DNA from: an uncultured Croceitalea sp.
Lineage (GTDB): Bacteria > Bacteroidota > Bacteroidia > Flavobacteriales > Flavobacteriaceae
Direction of reading: 5' to 3'
NCBI GenBank assembly: GCA_937926215.1
Contig: CALEYA010000111.1
Span: forward strand, 1-33,185
Length of the DNA: 33,185 nt
In this document: in pieces, positions 18,804-22,820 of the stretch
Position numbering within the stretch: position 1 is the first letter of the stretch
Layout of the letters: each line of letters starts with the position of its first letter
Notes under the pieces: model-generated
The model's input: the letters and a program-made list of their open reading frames with translations, nothing else
What the model was told of the DNA's origin: nothing
Database searches by the model: none
Translations under genes and position numbers: made by a program

Positions 18804-21800
18804 TTAATGTTTTTGGATAAACAATTTAGTGTTCACGTCGTCAAAAGCAATTTCCGTGCCTTTGTCCAACTGTTCTTCATATTTCAGTTCTGTGGTTAGT
18901 GTTTCACTTTTCAAATACTGTTCGTTGTTGGCTACCGCCTTTTCTACCAGGCCGTCCTTTAAAATGCTCAATGCGATTTTATCGGTTACCTCAAATCCAG
19001 AATCTTTTCTAAGGTTCTGGATCCTATTGACCAATTCCCTTGCAATACCTTCGTTTTTAAGGGTTTCATCAATAGTAATATCCAATGCGACCGTTAAAGG
19101 TCCGGAACTGGCCACAAGCCACCCTTCAATATCTTGAGAGGTAATTTCTACATCAGACAACTGTAAAATAATACTTTTATTATCTAATGGCACGGATAAT
19201 TCGCCTTCTTGTTCAATTTTTTGGATGTCTTCCTTTTTTAAACCATTGATCGCTGTTGATACGGCCTTCATATCCTTTCCGAATTTTGGACCCAAAACCT
19301 TAAAATTAGGTTTGATCTGTTTTACCAAAATCGATGAGGCATCATCCATCAAATCTATTTGTTTTACATTGACTTCAGATTTGATGAGGTCCGCAACCGC
19401 TTCAATGGCCTCCCGTTGTTCTTGGTTGAGCACGGGCACCATAATCTTCTGCAAAGGTTGGCGCACTTTGATTTTTTCCTTTTGACGTATGGATAACACC
19501 AAGGATGCTATCTTTTGCGCGGTCTGCATCTTATTTTCCAAACTTGGGTTTACAATGGTGTTGTCATGGGTTGGAAAGTTGGCCAGGTGAACGCTCTGCA
19601 AATTTTCTTTGCCGGTAGCGGTGTCCAAATCTTTATAGAGTTTGTCCGTAAAGAAAGGCGCTATAGGCGCAGCTAGCTTTGCAACCGTTTGCAAACAGGT
19701 ATATAGGGTTTGGTATGCCGCAATTTTATCATGCTGATAATCGCCTTTCCAAAAACGCCTTCTGCTTAGTCGTACGTACCAATTGCTTAAATTTTCTTGC
19801 ACAAAATCCGAAATTACCCTTGCGGCCCTTGTGGGCTCATAGTCCGCATAGGCTTCGTCCACTTTTTTAATGGCGGTATGTAGTTCAGATAATATCCATT
19901 GATCTAACTCTGGCCTATCTTCTAGTGGAATTTCCTGCTCCGCATAGCTAAAACCATCAATATTGGCGTACAAGGAAAAGAAGGAATAGGTATTGTATAA
20001 GGTGCCAAAGAACTTCCGCTTGACTTCTATAATACCATCAATGTCAAATTTAAGGTTGTCCCATGGGTTTGCATTGGAGATCATATACCATCTGGTAGCA
20101 TCTGCACCATGTTCCGGTAGGGTGATGAATGGATCAACGGCATTGCCCAATCTCTTGGACATTTTTTTGCCTTCCTTGTCCAAAACAAGTCCGTTGGAGA
20201 CGACATTTTTGTACGAAACGGTATCAAATACCATGGTTGCGATAGCGTGCAGCGTATAGAACCATCCCCGTGTTTGGTCAACACCTTCGGCGATGAAATC
20301 CGCAGGAAAGGTTTTGCCTTCATCGATCAAATCCTTGTTCTCAAAAGGGTAGTGCCACTGTGCGTAGGGCATGGAACCACTATCAAACCAGACATCGATA
20401 AGGTCCGCTTCCCGTTTCATGGGTTTGCCGGTCGGCGACACCAACACGATTTGATCCACAATATTTTTGTGTAAATCTATTTTATCATAATTAGCCTCGC
20501 TCATATCACCCACGGTAAAATCCGCAAAAATATCGCGTGCTAAGACTCCCGCCTCAATGGCTTTGGCCATCTCAGCTTTTAGTTCCGCCACGGAACCGAT
20601 CATGAGTTGCTCTTGACCATCTTCCGTTCTCCATATGGGTAACGGAATACCCCAATACCTGGAGCGCGATAGGTTCCAATCATTGGCATTGGCCAACCAA
20701 TTTCCAAAACGGCCTTCCCCTGTGGCTTTGGGTTTCCAGTTGATGGTCTGGTTCAACTCAAACATACGGTCTTTGATATCCGTTACTTTAATGAACCAGG
20801 AATCCAAGGGGTAATATAGAATAGGTTTGTCCGTACGCCAACAGTTGGGATAACTGTGCACATACTTTTCAACTTTAAATGCCTTATTTTCCTCTTTTAA
20901 TTTTATGGCAATCTCAACATCAATGGAACGCTCTGGGGCGTTACCATCTTCGTAATATTCGTTCTTTACATATTTGCCGCCAAACTCCTTAAGTTCTGGT
21001 CTAAATTTTCCTTGCAGGTCCACCAACGGAACGGCATTATTGTTTTCATCAAGGACCAACATTGGGGGAATCTCCGGCTGGGCCAGTTTGGCAACAAGGG
21101 CATCGTCTGCCCCAAAAGTGGGTGCCGTATGCACAATACCTGTTCCATCCTCCGTAGTAACAAAATCCCCGGCAATAACCCTAAAAGCATTTTCAGCGTT
21201 TTGATAGGGTGATGCATAATCGATGAGCTGCTCGTACCTTATTTCCAGTAAATCGGAACCTTTACAAGCTGCAGCTACCAGAAACGGAATTTTCTTGTCT
21301 CCTTTTTTATAGTCCGATAGCACCGAAACCTCTTGGGTTTCTTCGTATTTCCCGCTAAATTGTTTGCCCACTAAGTTTTTGGCAAGCACTACTTGGATGG
21401 GCTTAAAAGTATATTGGTTAAAAGTCCTGACTAAAACATAATCGATCTTGGGACCTACTGTTAATGCGGTGTTAGATGGTAATGTCCATGGTGTGGTCGT
21501 CCAAGCCAGAAAATAGGCGTCTCCAAAACCCCCTCCACCTTTGGCACCTTCCCCAAGGGAGGAATCCAAACCAAAAGCATCCAAAATTGATTTCCCCCCT
21601 TTGGGGGCTAGGGGGCTTTTAAATTGGGCCGTTACCGTAGTGTCCGTAACATCTTGATAGGTGCCAGGTTGGTTCAACTCATGCGAGCTAAGGCCCGTAC
21701 CCGCTTTTGGGGAGTAGGGTTGAATGGTGTACCCTTTATAAATCAACCCTTTGTCATAAATCTGTTTGAGCAACCACCATACAGACTCCATGTATTTGGA

Positions 21801-22256
21801 TTTGTAGGTGATGTAAGGGTCGTCCATATCTACCCAATAGCCTACTTTTTCGGTCATTTCGTTCCAAACGTCCGTATAGCGCATGACTGCTTTTTTACAG
21901 GCCGCATTGTATTCTTCTACCGTGATTTTTGTGCCTATATCCTCTTTGGTAATCCCCAATTCCTTTTCTACACCAAGTTCTATGGGCAAACCGTGCGTAT
22001 CCCAGCCTGCTTTGCGTTTTACTTGATAGCCTTTCATGGTTTTATACCTAGGAAAAATATCCTTAATGGTCCGTGCCATGACATGGTGTATGCCGGGCAT
22101 TCCGTTTGCAGATGGAGGCCCTTCGTAGAAAACATAGGGCTCTTTGCCTTCCCTAGAAGAAATGCTTTTTTCAAAGATGTTGTTCTCCTTCCAATAGGCC
22201 AGTATTTCATCGGCTACTTTTGGGAGGTCCAATCCGCTATATTCTGCAAACTTCAT
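18804..22256 (-). CDS. ileS: Isoleucyl-tRNA synthetase with swapped GxHH signature and repeat-derived insert
   Basis: A 1150-residue class I synthetase that charges tRNA-Ile. The catalytic domain is split by the editing (CP1) domain, which has the hallmark WTTTPWTLPSNTAL just after residue 246. KMSKR is at 698-702. The first class I signature, usually HxGH after NGxP, reads NGMPGIHHVMA (52-60): positions one and three are swapped (GxHH). Residues 214-244 (starting SPLAPKGGKSILDAFG) are low-complexity and Gly-rich and come from a 96-bp palindromic repeat inserted in frame at 21525-21620. The overall length and lack of a C-terminal zinc-Cys cluster suggest the eukaryote-like IleS2 class, by inference. 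The TraR/DksA gene follows 2 bp downstream; a -7 box lies 30 bp upstream (22286-22293). Confidence 0.97.
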   Translation of the reverse strand: MKFAEYSGLDLPKVADEILAYWKENNIFEKSISSREGKEPYVFYEGPPSANGMPGIHHVMARTIKDIFPRYKTMKGYQVKRKAGWDTHGLPIELGVEKELGITKEDIGTKITVEEYNAACKKAVMRYTDVWNEMTEKVGYWVDMDDPYITYKSKYMESVWWLLKQIYDKGLIYKGYTIQPYSPKAGTGLSSHELNQPGTYQDVTDTTVTAQFKSPLAPKGGKSILDAFGLDSSLGEGAKGGGGFGDAYFLAWTTTPWTLPSNTALTVGPKIDYVLVRTFNQYTFKPIQVVLAKNLVGKQFSGKYEETQEVSVLSDYKKGDKKIPFLVAAACKGSDLLEIRYEQLIDYASPYQNAENAFRVIAGDFVTTEDGTGIVHTAPTFGADDALVAKLAQPEIPPMLVLDENNNAVPLVDLQGKFRPELKEFGGKYVKNEYYEDGNAPERSIDVEIAIKLKEENKAFKVEKYVHSYPNCWRTDKPILYYPLDSWFIKVTDIKDRMFELNQTINWKPKATGEGRFGNWLANANDWNLSRSRYWGIPLPIWRTEDGQEQLMIGSVAELKAEMAKAIEAGVLARDIFADFTVGDMSEANYDKIDLHKNIVDQIVLVSPTGKPMKREADLIDVWFDSGSMPYAQWHYPFENKDLIDEGKTFPADFIAEGVDQTRGWFYTLHAIATMVFDTVSYKNVVSNGLVLDKEGKKMSKRLGNAVDPFITLPEHGADATRWYMISNANPWDNLKFDIDGIIEVKRKFFGTLYNTYSFFSLYANIDGFSYAEQEIPLEDRPELDQWILSELHTAIKKVDEAYADYEPTRAARVISDFVQENLSNWYVRLSRRRFWKGDYQHDKIAAYQTLYTCLQTVAKLAAPIAPFFTDKLYKDLDTATGKENLQSVHLANFPTHDNTIVNPSLENKMQTAQKIASLVLSIRQKEKIKVRQPLQKIMVPVLNQEQREAIEAVADLIKSEVNVKQIDLMDDASSILVKQIKPNFKVLGPKFGKDMKAVSTAINGLKKEDIQKIEQEGELSVPLDNKSIILQLSDVEITSQDIEGWLVASSGPLTVALDITIDETLKNEGIARELVNRIQNLRKDSGFEVTDKIALSILKDGLVEKAVANNEQYLKSETLTTELKYEEQLDKGTEIAFDDVNTKLFIQKH
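21525..21620. repeat. 96-bp palindromic repeat inserted in frame in ileS
   Basis: The ends are inverted copies: AAAACCCCCT (21525-21534) and AGGGGGCTTTT (21610-21620), 10 of 11 matching with one gap. Inside are CCCCC-TTT-GGGGG (21595-21607) and CCTT-CCCC-AAGG (21547-21558). Length is exactly 32 codons, so the reading frame is kept. Composition (C/G runs) is unlike the rest of ileS. The element falls in the variable loop just before the editing-domain WTTTPWTLPSN motif, where family members differ in length. Confidence 0.75.
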
Positions 22257-22388: not shown

Positions 22389-22418
22389 ATCTTGTCAACA
22401 AACATAAAACCTATTAAA

Positions 22419-22820
22419 ATGAAAAAAGTAGTACTGGCCGTTTTGGCACTAGTAATCACAACATCGGCGTTAACGTCTTGCAAAGAGGCTGCAAAGAAAG
22501 CGGAAGATGCTGCAGAGGCAACTGAAAATGCAATGGAGGAAGCAGGAGAAGACCTTAAAGAAGCAGGAGAGGATGCCATGGATAAAGCCAAAGAAGTGGG
22601 AGATGATATGAAAGAAGCCGGCGAAAAGGCAATGGATAGTATCAAAGCAGCTGGAGAAGGCGCTATGGACAAAGCTAAGGAAATGGGAGATGATGCCATG
22701 GACAAAGCAAAAGAGATGGGTGACGATGCCAAAGATGCTATGGACAAAGCAGGTGACGATATGAAAAAGAAAGCGGATGAAATGGCCAAGAAAGCGGAAG
22801 ACGCTGTTCAGGACCATTAA
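22419..22820 (+). CDS. Small lipoprotein with LEA/apolipoprotein-like 11-residue repeats
   Basis: A 133-residue protein. Signal peptide with lipobox LTSC (Cys21) at 1-21 (MKKVVLAVLALVITTSALTS), then an all-helical, highly charged, Ala-rich tail built on 11-residue units such as AMDKAKEMGDD, repeated twice in a row and in diverged form throughout. There is no aromatic residue after the signal peptide and no Cys after Cys21. The pattern matches amphipathic 11-mer helices of LEA and YtxH-like proteins, linked to desiccation, osmotic or envelope stress, though that role is inferred. ATG 22419 is chosen over an upstream TTG at 22392 because it starts the signal peptide exactly. An inverted repeat (22360-22388) precedes it and a shared bidirectional terminator (22842-22869) follows. 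Adjacent repeats differ mainly at third codon positions, so selection acts on the protein. Confidence 0.88.
   Translation: MKKVVLAVLALVITTSALTSCKEAAKKAEDAAEATENAMEEAGEDLKEAGEDAMDKAKEVGDDMKEAGEKAMDSIKAAGEGAMDKAKEMGDDAMDKAKEMGDDAKDAMDKAGDDMKKKADEMAKKAEDAVQDH

Follow-up and report, generated by a model that had tools for sequence, protein, structure and literature searches.

A palindromic element read in frame in ileS of an uncultured Croceitalea sp., a probable nuclease-free relative of DUF559-encoding insertions in Bacteroidota genes

Introduction

An element that inserts into an essential gene would be expected to depend on self-splicing or on exact removal. Inteins, which are in-frame, nuclease-carrying insertions in conserved enzymes, also exist as nuclease-free mini inteins. 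Among shorter elements, the Rickettsia palindromic elements (RPEs) of Rickettsia and Wolbachia are palindromes of 100–150 bp that, according to two reports, lie in frame within the open reading frames of housekeeping genes, including a tRNA synthetase gene, at recurring sites (PMC3767692, PMC3733652). The EDxHD/Vsr-type nuclease I-Bth0305I is placed among the group I intron homing endonucleases in another report (PMC3943268), and a further one describes the ShiLan-type insertion in phage methylases as open in the host frame, not identified as an intron or intein, linked to a nuclease, and proposed to home (PMC11855218). DUF559, a domain of unknown function, has been put in the EDxHD homing nuclease family for a cyanobacterium and described as a Vsr-like domain in Caulobacter (PMC9403480 and PMC12907096, respectively). 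Here we analyze a stretch of 33,185 nucleotides, called the window throughout, from contig CALEYA010000111.1 of an uncultured Croceitalea sp. (Flavobacteriaceae), in which a 96-bp palindromic element lies within the reading frame of ileS, the gene for isoleucyl-tRNA synthetase (Table 1), and we compare this locus with the systems above.

In our estimate, with a probability of roughly 0.68, the 96-bp piece derives from a homing-like mobile element of Bacteroidota that sits in frame and does not splice, and is its deleted or miniature form, free of the nuclease. A first-pass annotation made from the letters alone had described a protein-coding palindromic element in the style of the RPEs in a flavobacterium, and the element is indeed read in frame and missing from its genus relatives. 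This description is incomplete, as the element belongs with a palindrome-ended family whose full form carries a DUF559 (Vsr-type) nuclease. In the open-licence literature of PMC, we found no paper on in-frame, palindrome-ended DUF559 elements. Genomes (G), contigs (C) and loci (L) are given below by our own numbers, G000 being the genome of the window, whose assembly is 92% complete.

Results

Recurrence of the end sequence

The left end of the ileS element fits the pattern CCCCCTARCCCCCRAAGGGGG, which has 63 matches in 13 of 149 Flavobacteriaceae genomes, compared with 0 matches for a reversed control pattern. The inner core of this end, CCCCCAAAGGGGG, occurs exactly at only two places in G000, namely ileS and metH, and the metH copy forms the left edge of an in-frame DUF559 domain. 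Thirty of the 63 exact ends were taken up as loci; nine of these lie in an open frame, two of them in ileS (of the window and of G132) and seven at in-frame DUF559 inserts. Strong DUF559 matches (E below 1e-20) were found in 12 of the 13 end-bearing genomes and in 39 of the 136 genomes without the end (p = 1e-5), a stronger correlation with the exact end than that of the Y1 transposase considered below, which makes DUF559 the better candidate for the mover. As a separate observation, ten exact ends lie on one strand within about 8 kb of G057 (C21:63696-71699), a cluster unlike the scattered copies elsewhere.

In-frame DUF559 inserts in the window genome and across Bacteroidota

The metH gene of G000 carries DUF559 (E 4e-36) in frame between two cobalamin domains of methionine synthase, bounded on its right by another C/G-run palindrome, and the second in-frame DUF559 of the genome, in leuS, has CCCCCTCCACCGGAGGGGG on both sides. 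With the metH insert as query, bacterial genomes yielded 191 relatives, 80 of which were kept as loci; in 66 of these, the frame holding DUF559 stays open over 60 aa or more on each side. Curated family models recognize host sequence both before and after the insert in MetH and LeuS (two sites each), ValS and RecG, and show that IleS is also invaded at a second site, before VDQTRGWF. Further hosts flanking the insert on both sides are a CoA transferase, acetyl-CoA synthetase, UvrA, CinA, a UvrD-type helicase, methylmalonyl-CoA mutase and adenine deaminase. DUF559 precedes the host in guanylate kinase, HemD, an isocitrate-type dehydrogenase and the RNase P protein, and follows it in histidinol dehydrogenase.

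A first scoring covered 129 DUF559 frames, with a side counted as in frame when at least 60 aa of open frame extended on it, and found 82 open on both sides, 14 downstream only, 5 upstream only and 28 alone. After class-level loci had been added, with identical left flanks and domains too near the end of a locus left out, 109 of 153 DUF559 copies (rows stemming from 107 loci) were in frame on both sides, in 21 site clusters. These proportions describe this branch rather than all DUF559, because the loci come largely from searches with element-type DUF559. Among the 109 in-frame copies, a palindromic end was present on the left in 73, on the right in 92, on both sides in 66 and on at least one side in 99, compared with 1.0% and 1.2% of 4360 control windows from the same loci. 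The end pattern used here, built on C/G runs and tolerating one mismatch, was settled on with the data already in view; it replaced an earlier hairpin count that required stems of at least 6 and was blind to the common 5-bp stems, and that had given 30 left, 47 right and 25 both among the 109 (control about 2%). Palindromic ends also occur at 7 of 26 stand-alone DUF559 genes and at 9 of 18 that are open on one side. Of all 76 two-ended copies, an open frame extends on both sides in 66 and on a single side in 5, and the remaining 5 stand alone. In the 66 two-ended in-frame elements, the right ends on average resemble their own left ends more than shuffled ones do (0 of 5000 permutations).

We looked for signs of splicing in several ways. 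Pfam listed no intein (Hint) domain in 21 insert-bearing proteins (host domains, DUF559 and the related MTES_1575 only), NCBIfam at E 1e-10 gave no splicing domain among the matches listed for 10 such proteins, and Rfam, applied to 7 loci with ileS, metH, leuS or recG inserts, gave 0 matches at gathering score. An intein was rejected on the first two results, and a known group I or group II intron, for those 7 loci, on the third.

Several individual loci deserve mention in their own right. The acetyl-CoA synthetase frame of L093 (3105-6023) holds two separate DUF559 inserts (two stretches in Pfam) and is doubly invaded. In L100 (3678-6713), an adenine deaminase, tandem repeats of a palindrome-derived peptide (SEIPPLGGRGAFYQTDG...) surround the DUF559 insert, as if an end had been amplified. 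In L061 and L221 (RNase P protein), L190, L195, L204 and L214 (HemD-like), L115 and L135 (guanylate kinase-like) and L142 (isocitrate-type dehydrogenase), DUF559 precedes the start of a housekeeping protein and is joined to it in one frame; the hosts of L061, L190, L115 and L142 were checked by family models and the others named by likeness. Such a DUF559 is either a fused leader or an intergenic element whose frame enters the next gene. L077, labelled as a Bifidobacterium breve metagenome-assembled genome, has a flavobacterial-type metH with a DUF559 insert and is probably a mislabelled or contaminated bin. Four stand-alone DUF559 genes of G000 (C103:11214-11531, C70:296-616, C146:3129-3437 and C42:3911-4222) have no end pattern on either side and apparently represent a different DUF559 branch.

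The nuclease domain

The active site is kept. In 110 in-frame copies, a set that includes two repeats outside the 109 (L303 of the window genome's own metH, and L217, a Croceitalea dokdonensis contig identical over 3324 of 3324 bases to L065 of G001), residues Thr27, Glu30, Trp34, Asp59, Glu70 and Gly73 are invariant in the numbering of the own metH domain; His76 is present in 109 of the 110 and Asp72 in 108. The ratio of nonsynonymous to synonymous substitution rates (dN/dS) of DUF559 was 0.05–0.22 in the 8 of 15 pairs where it was computable, dS not being estimable in the other 7. Host flanks at the same site gave 0.02–0.11 where estimated, often at high dS, and one comparison across different metH sites gave a host-flank value of 0.42. 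The low ratios in both parts indicate that nuclease and host have both been kept working.

Sequence searches matched the domain to 3HRL, a DUF559 protein, and to 3R3P, the homing endonuclease I-Bth0305I (profile E 2e-4, single-sequence E 8e-4). A predicted structure of the metH fragment reached a mean predicted local distance difference test score (pLDDT) of 71, with residues 71-180 in blocks of 81–93, and was superposed on 3HRL with Z 14.4 (94 residues, 1.8 A), on I-Bth0305I with Z 10.0 (93 residues, 3.1 A) and on Vsr (1CW0) with Z 8.8 (99 residues, 3.1 A). Judged by these matches and this model, the DUF559 of the full form has the homology and predicted fold of an EDxHD/Vsr-type homing endonuclease.

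Gain, loss and spread within the genus

Close relatives differ in whether a given site holds the DUF559 element. G000 and G007 have it in leuS, G000 and G001 in metH, and G005 and G007 in recG, and the recG site is empty in five genus genomes (leuS and metH were not found in G002). The leuS of G004, the nearest relative by ileS, carries CCTCCCCCCAGCCCCCTCTATCGGAGCGGGTCAGGGGGAGG in frame, that is, the outer arms with a single inner palindrome, which is the scar expected after a deletion between two like inner palindromes. Members of the same DUF559 branch at different sites reach up to 78% identity (two metH sites), and a single metH site compared across genera shows 64–81% for most; since the cross-site value falls within the same-site range, the element appears to have moved between sites too. 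Empty and occupied sites are too divergent to define a target-site duplication, and inverted ends are present.

The ileS site in other genomes

A full DUF559 element occupies exactly the window's ileS position in L106, a Bacteroidales contig, and its ends, AGCCCCTCTAAATCTCCCCAAAGGGGAGA and, reverse-complemented, AGCCCCCTCTAAATCTCCCCCCAAGGGGGAGA, are matched. The ileS site is present in 147 of the 149 Flavobacteriaceae genomes, and the loops inspected were the 14 that were outliers by match length or frame length. Short palindromic forms stand at the window's site in G080, G132 and G145, and a worn one in G142; in the G132 copy, the inverted ends are near-perfect, 52 nt separate them, and there is no nuclease. 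The loops of G022, G076 and G153 end in apparent worn right ends (LPFG.DLGG and variants), those of G030, G077, G123 and G151 are of other kinds, and those of G061, G106 and G140 are normal. The spacer between the two ends in the window resembles the spacers of the short forms in G080, G142 and G145, and less so that of G132; elsewhere it reads SIWDAFK in two other genera and SVWEAFK in one. It may be part of the element or an altered host helix.

A class-wide survey of ileS matched 367 of 395 genomes, with about 150 matches listed, so that weakly matching insert-bearing ileS genes could escape it. A search with the L106 insert matched 96 of the 395 genomes at E 1e-20; among the 150 matches listed, 92 had open frames of at least 300 aa, and none of these spans the whole ileS-DUF559-ileS query. 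The inserts of LeuS, ValS and the L106 IleS lie ahead of the first editing-domain strand and fall in one site cluster, since this loop is homologous among the class I enzymes concerned. The loci of this cluster 1 (L057, L106, L122, L134, L116 and others) thereby share a homologous loop of three related tRNA synthetases, which reflects either structural tolerance or a common target sequence.

Identity between the ileS genes of the window and G004 varies along the gene. The six 30-codon windows that cover codons 210 to 31 upstream of the site lie at 91–97%, the last 30 codons before the site at 87% and the window of the loop at 57%. The next three windows give 71, 82 and 83%, and those farther downstream 82–98%, apart from one at 80% and one at 73%. 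G004 is absent from the four best matches of the overlapping 40-codon windows that begin at residues 215-255. Neither G005 nor G006 has an identity dip at the ileS insert.

Build of the ileS element and comparison with genus relatives

The gene in the window is the sole strong IleS match found in its assembly. The inserted residues stand directly before the strand LAWTTTPWT, which we take to be the opening of the IleS editing domain, and the site is a variable loop immediately before that domain, as first annotated. The terminal inverted repeats and inner hairpin reported there are likewise real: the outer arms form inverted repeats of 10 nt at 90% identity, and CCCCCAAAGGGGG is the inner palindrome. 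A short palindromic repeat is read in frame here with the IleS motifs intact, from which the protein would still function as IleS; the predicted structure of this IleS, against which the annotated surface position of the loop would be judged, is of low confidence (mean pLDDT 62).

Folding energy was dropped as evidence for the element. As RNA, it barely beats shuffled sequences (z -1.61, 16 of 200 shuffles as good), and as DNA it is no better than they are (z 0.07, 102 of 200 as good); the case for the element is the recurrence of its ends. Allowing at most 2 mismatches, the window contains 4 copies of the 13-mer CCCCCTTTGGGGG against 1.5 expected; with 9 of 100 shuffles having as many, this 13-mer is not rare there.

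The stretch from QFK to LAWTT has 36 residues in the window and 18–19 in six of the seven other genus genomes (those where ileS was found), so that the net gain is 17–18 codons. The native loop sequence is replaced rather than interrupted, and the relatives offer no clean empty site; the clean insertion of exactly 32 codons claimed by the first-pass annotation is therefore rejected. Its expectation that the residues would not be conserved in relatives was borne out, unlike that of a second copy: no other copy of the whole 96 bp was found in G000, where the next best match is 26 bp at 88%, inside metH. The left-end core is nonetheless present at the DUF559 insert of that gene.

Table 1. Features of the window around the ileS element
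Feature	Position	Strand	Remarks
ileS, isoleucyl-tRNA synthetase, host gene	18804-22256	minus	1150 aa, open throughout; Pfam PF00133, PF08264, PF19302
Palindromic insertion, in frame, IleS residues 213-244	21525-21620	minus	peptide K-SPLAPKGG-KSILDAFGLD-SSLGEGAKGGGG-F
Left (upstream) end: outer C arm and inner hairpin CCCCCAAAGGGGG	21594-21620	minus	
21-nt left end CCCCCTAGCCCCCAAAGGGGG	21595-21615	minus	fits pattern CCCCCTARCCCCCRAAGGGGG
30-nt spacer encoding KSILDAFGLD	21564-21593	minus	
Right (downstream) end TCCTCCCTTGGGGAAGGTGCCAAAGGTGGAGGGGGTTTT	21525-21563	minus	variant longer than the left end
142-aa frame	22392-22820	plus	lipoprotein-like start; Lys/Glu/Ala-rich repeat (KEAGEDAMDKAKEVGDD...), low complexity

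Discussion

The full element measures about 420 bp and consists of two inverted ends of about 21–27 nt enclosing a DUF559 frame of about 105 residues; each end combines an outer arm, which is a run of C or of G, with an inner hairpin (CCCCC-RAA-GGGGG or a variant of it). Its nuclease, of the predicted Vsr / EDxHD homing-endonuclease fold, is encoded in frame within housekeeping genes, with the C-runs and G-runs serving as Pro-rich and Gly-rich linkers, so that the host protein would gain an extra loop or a folded domain. Made as part of the host protein, the nuclease would cut alleles lacking the element, and repair would copy the element, together with some flanking host sequence, into the cut allele; new sites would be reached more rarely. 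The element would be lost when an in-frame stretch is deleted, as could happen between its two inner palindromes, each of which is also a direct repeat of the other, and a short in-frame scar would be left. The ileS allele of the window would be such a short form, perhaps acquired through horizontal exchange of a short ileS tract. The broader proposal of an element class that lives permanently in proteins, with palindromic ends doubling as C/G-run linkers, a Vsr-fold homing nuclease made as a domain of essential enzymes, in-frame scars, nuclease-free miniatures, a spread over many Bacteroidota genes, and no splicing of either RNA or protein, is offered tentatively, at slightly less than even odds.

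Several observations weigh against a nuclease-free form of a homing-like element. Twenty-one of the 30 exact ends taken up lie outside open frames, 17 with no partner found within 700 nt and four with a partner at 19–92 nt, and the solitary intergenic ends may have been moved by something other than DUF559; the Y1 transposase is also enriched in the end-bearing genomes (10 of 13, compared with 48 of the 136 others, p = 0.006). L106 is the one contig seen with the full form at the window's exact ileS site, and the matches listed for 149 and 395 genomes added no other. In the ileS element itself, the right end differs from the left, and no second copy of it was found in G000. The spacer SI[LW]DAF[GK] is as like the native helix SLPEFLK as it is like the N-terminal DUF559 helix, and the short form might be two separate palindromes around a native helix. 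For the two-ended elements, the own right end is rarely the single best match of the left end (median rank 9.5 of 66), and wrong-way patterns match 31 and 24 of the 109 flanks, because an inner palindrome with a nearby run can satisfy both patterns. The recG gene was not found in G000. Joint import of the element and a short ileS tract is suggestive only, because the 73% dip lies elsewhere in the gene without an insert and no clear co-conversion dip surrounds the metH and leuS inserts when the window genome is compared with G004. Cleavage, excision and movement are thus proposals made from sequence.

Four other explanations were weighed. The solitary ends and the enrichment of Y1_Tnp would be natural if the palindromes were repetitive extragenic palindromes (REPs), or their doublets (REPINs), moved on single strands by a Y1 transposase of the REP-associated tyrosine transposase (RAYT) kind, with DUF559 a passenger or a separate parasite that had come to lie between them; the ileS piece, a doublet of inverted hairpins and thus REPIN-like, would then be a REP doublet inserted into a gene. 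We consider this unlikely, since Y1_Tnp (PF01797) has 0 matches in the 92% complete assembly of G000, for which a RAYT was rejected, and none in 3 of the 13 end-bearing genomes, since DUF559 is the better correlate of the end, and since the great majority of two-ended DUF559 copies (66 of 76) are in frame inside genes. Quite improbable, in our view, is a coding palindrome of the Rickettsia type, a selfish in-frame repeat that has no link to a nuclease and whose association with DUF559 reflects a shared C/G-run linker composition. RPEs are indeed similar in size, palindromic build and in-frame position, including a tRNA synthetase; however, the frequency of palindromic ends at in-frame DUF559 copies far exceeds the roughly 1% of control windows, the ends match within an element, and the full form stands at the same ileS site in L106.

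Even less credible is ordinary variation of the loop, through local duplication and slippage in C/G runs with a chance likeness of ends. Loop length does vary among Flavobacteriaceae, the genome lacks a second full copy, and the folding scores barely exceed those of shuffles, yet the end pattern recurs in 13 genomes with no match for its reversal, palindromic short forms stand at the same place in four other genera, and the near-perfect inverted ends of the G132 ileS copy contradict such an origin. We give hardly any weight to removal of the insert from the RNA as an intron of a new type, or to its bypass by ribosomes through pairing of the ends, either of which would leave a normal host protein. 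The two ends can pair and would join the host borders; neither mechanism, however, needs the open, in-frame junctions seen on both sides of 109 copies, selection on the nuclease frame is purifying in the pairs compared, and the Rfam, Pfam and NCBIfam scans reported above gave neither an intron match nor an intein domain.

Comparison with known systems

If a nuclease-bearing element stands behind the ileS piece, the insert in MetH, LeuS, IleS, ValS, RecG, UvrA and others seems simply to be translated and to become a linker or an additional nuclease domain. Homing-type nucleases would then have another means of residing in conserved genes besides introns and inteins. It would also supply a candidate mover for protein-coding palindromes, a mechanism that is testable for the Rickettsia ones. 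For annotation, tRNA synthetases or MetH proteins labelled with "DUF559" need not be gene fusions of new function, and DUF559 gains a testable function in this context.

The ileS element is like the RPEs in being a short palindrome in frame in a housekeeping gene, and is set apart from them by its occurrence in a flavobacterium rather than in Rickettsia or Wolbachia and by the existence of a full form with a nuclease. We know of no nuclease linked to RPEs. It shares with REPs, REPINs and miniature inverted-repeat transposable elements (MITEs) the inverted hairpin doublet without coding capacity of its own and the solitary intergenic copies, and differs in that the full form encodes DUF559, that the own genome has no Y1 match and that most two-ended copies are in frame. 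The DUF559 form resembles I-Bth0305I in nuclease fold and motif and in its optional presence at fixed sites in conserved genes, whereas here the nuclease is part of the host frame, palindromic ends are present and no intron or intein was detected in the scans described. It resembles inteins as an in-frame, nuclease-carrying insertion in conserved enzymes; unlike them, it has no splicing domain listed by Pfam or NCBIfam, and the insert apparently stays in the protein. In the ShiLan-type insertion, an HNH nuclease is encoded out of frame (PMC11855218), whereas DUF559 is in frame here, with palindromic ends and in many genes. With these likenesses and differences taken together, there is a fair chance that the palindrome-ended, in-frame DUF559 element and its short forms across Bacteroidota genes deserve a class of their own.

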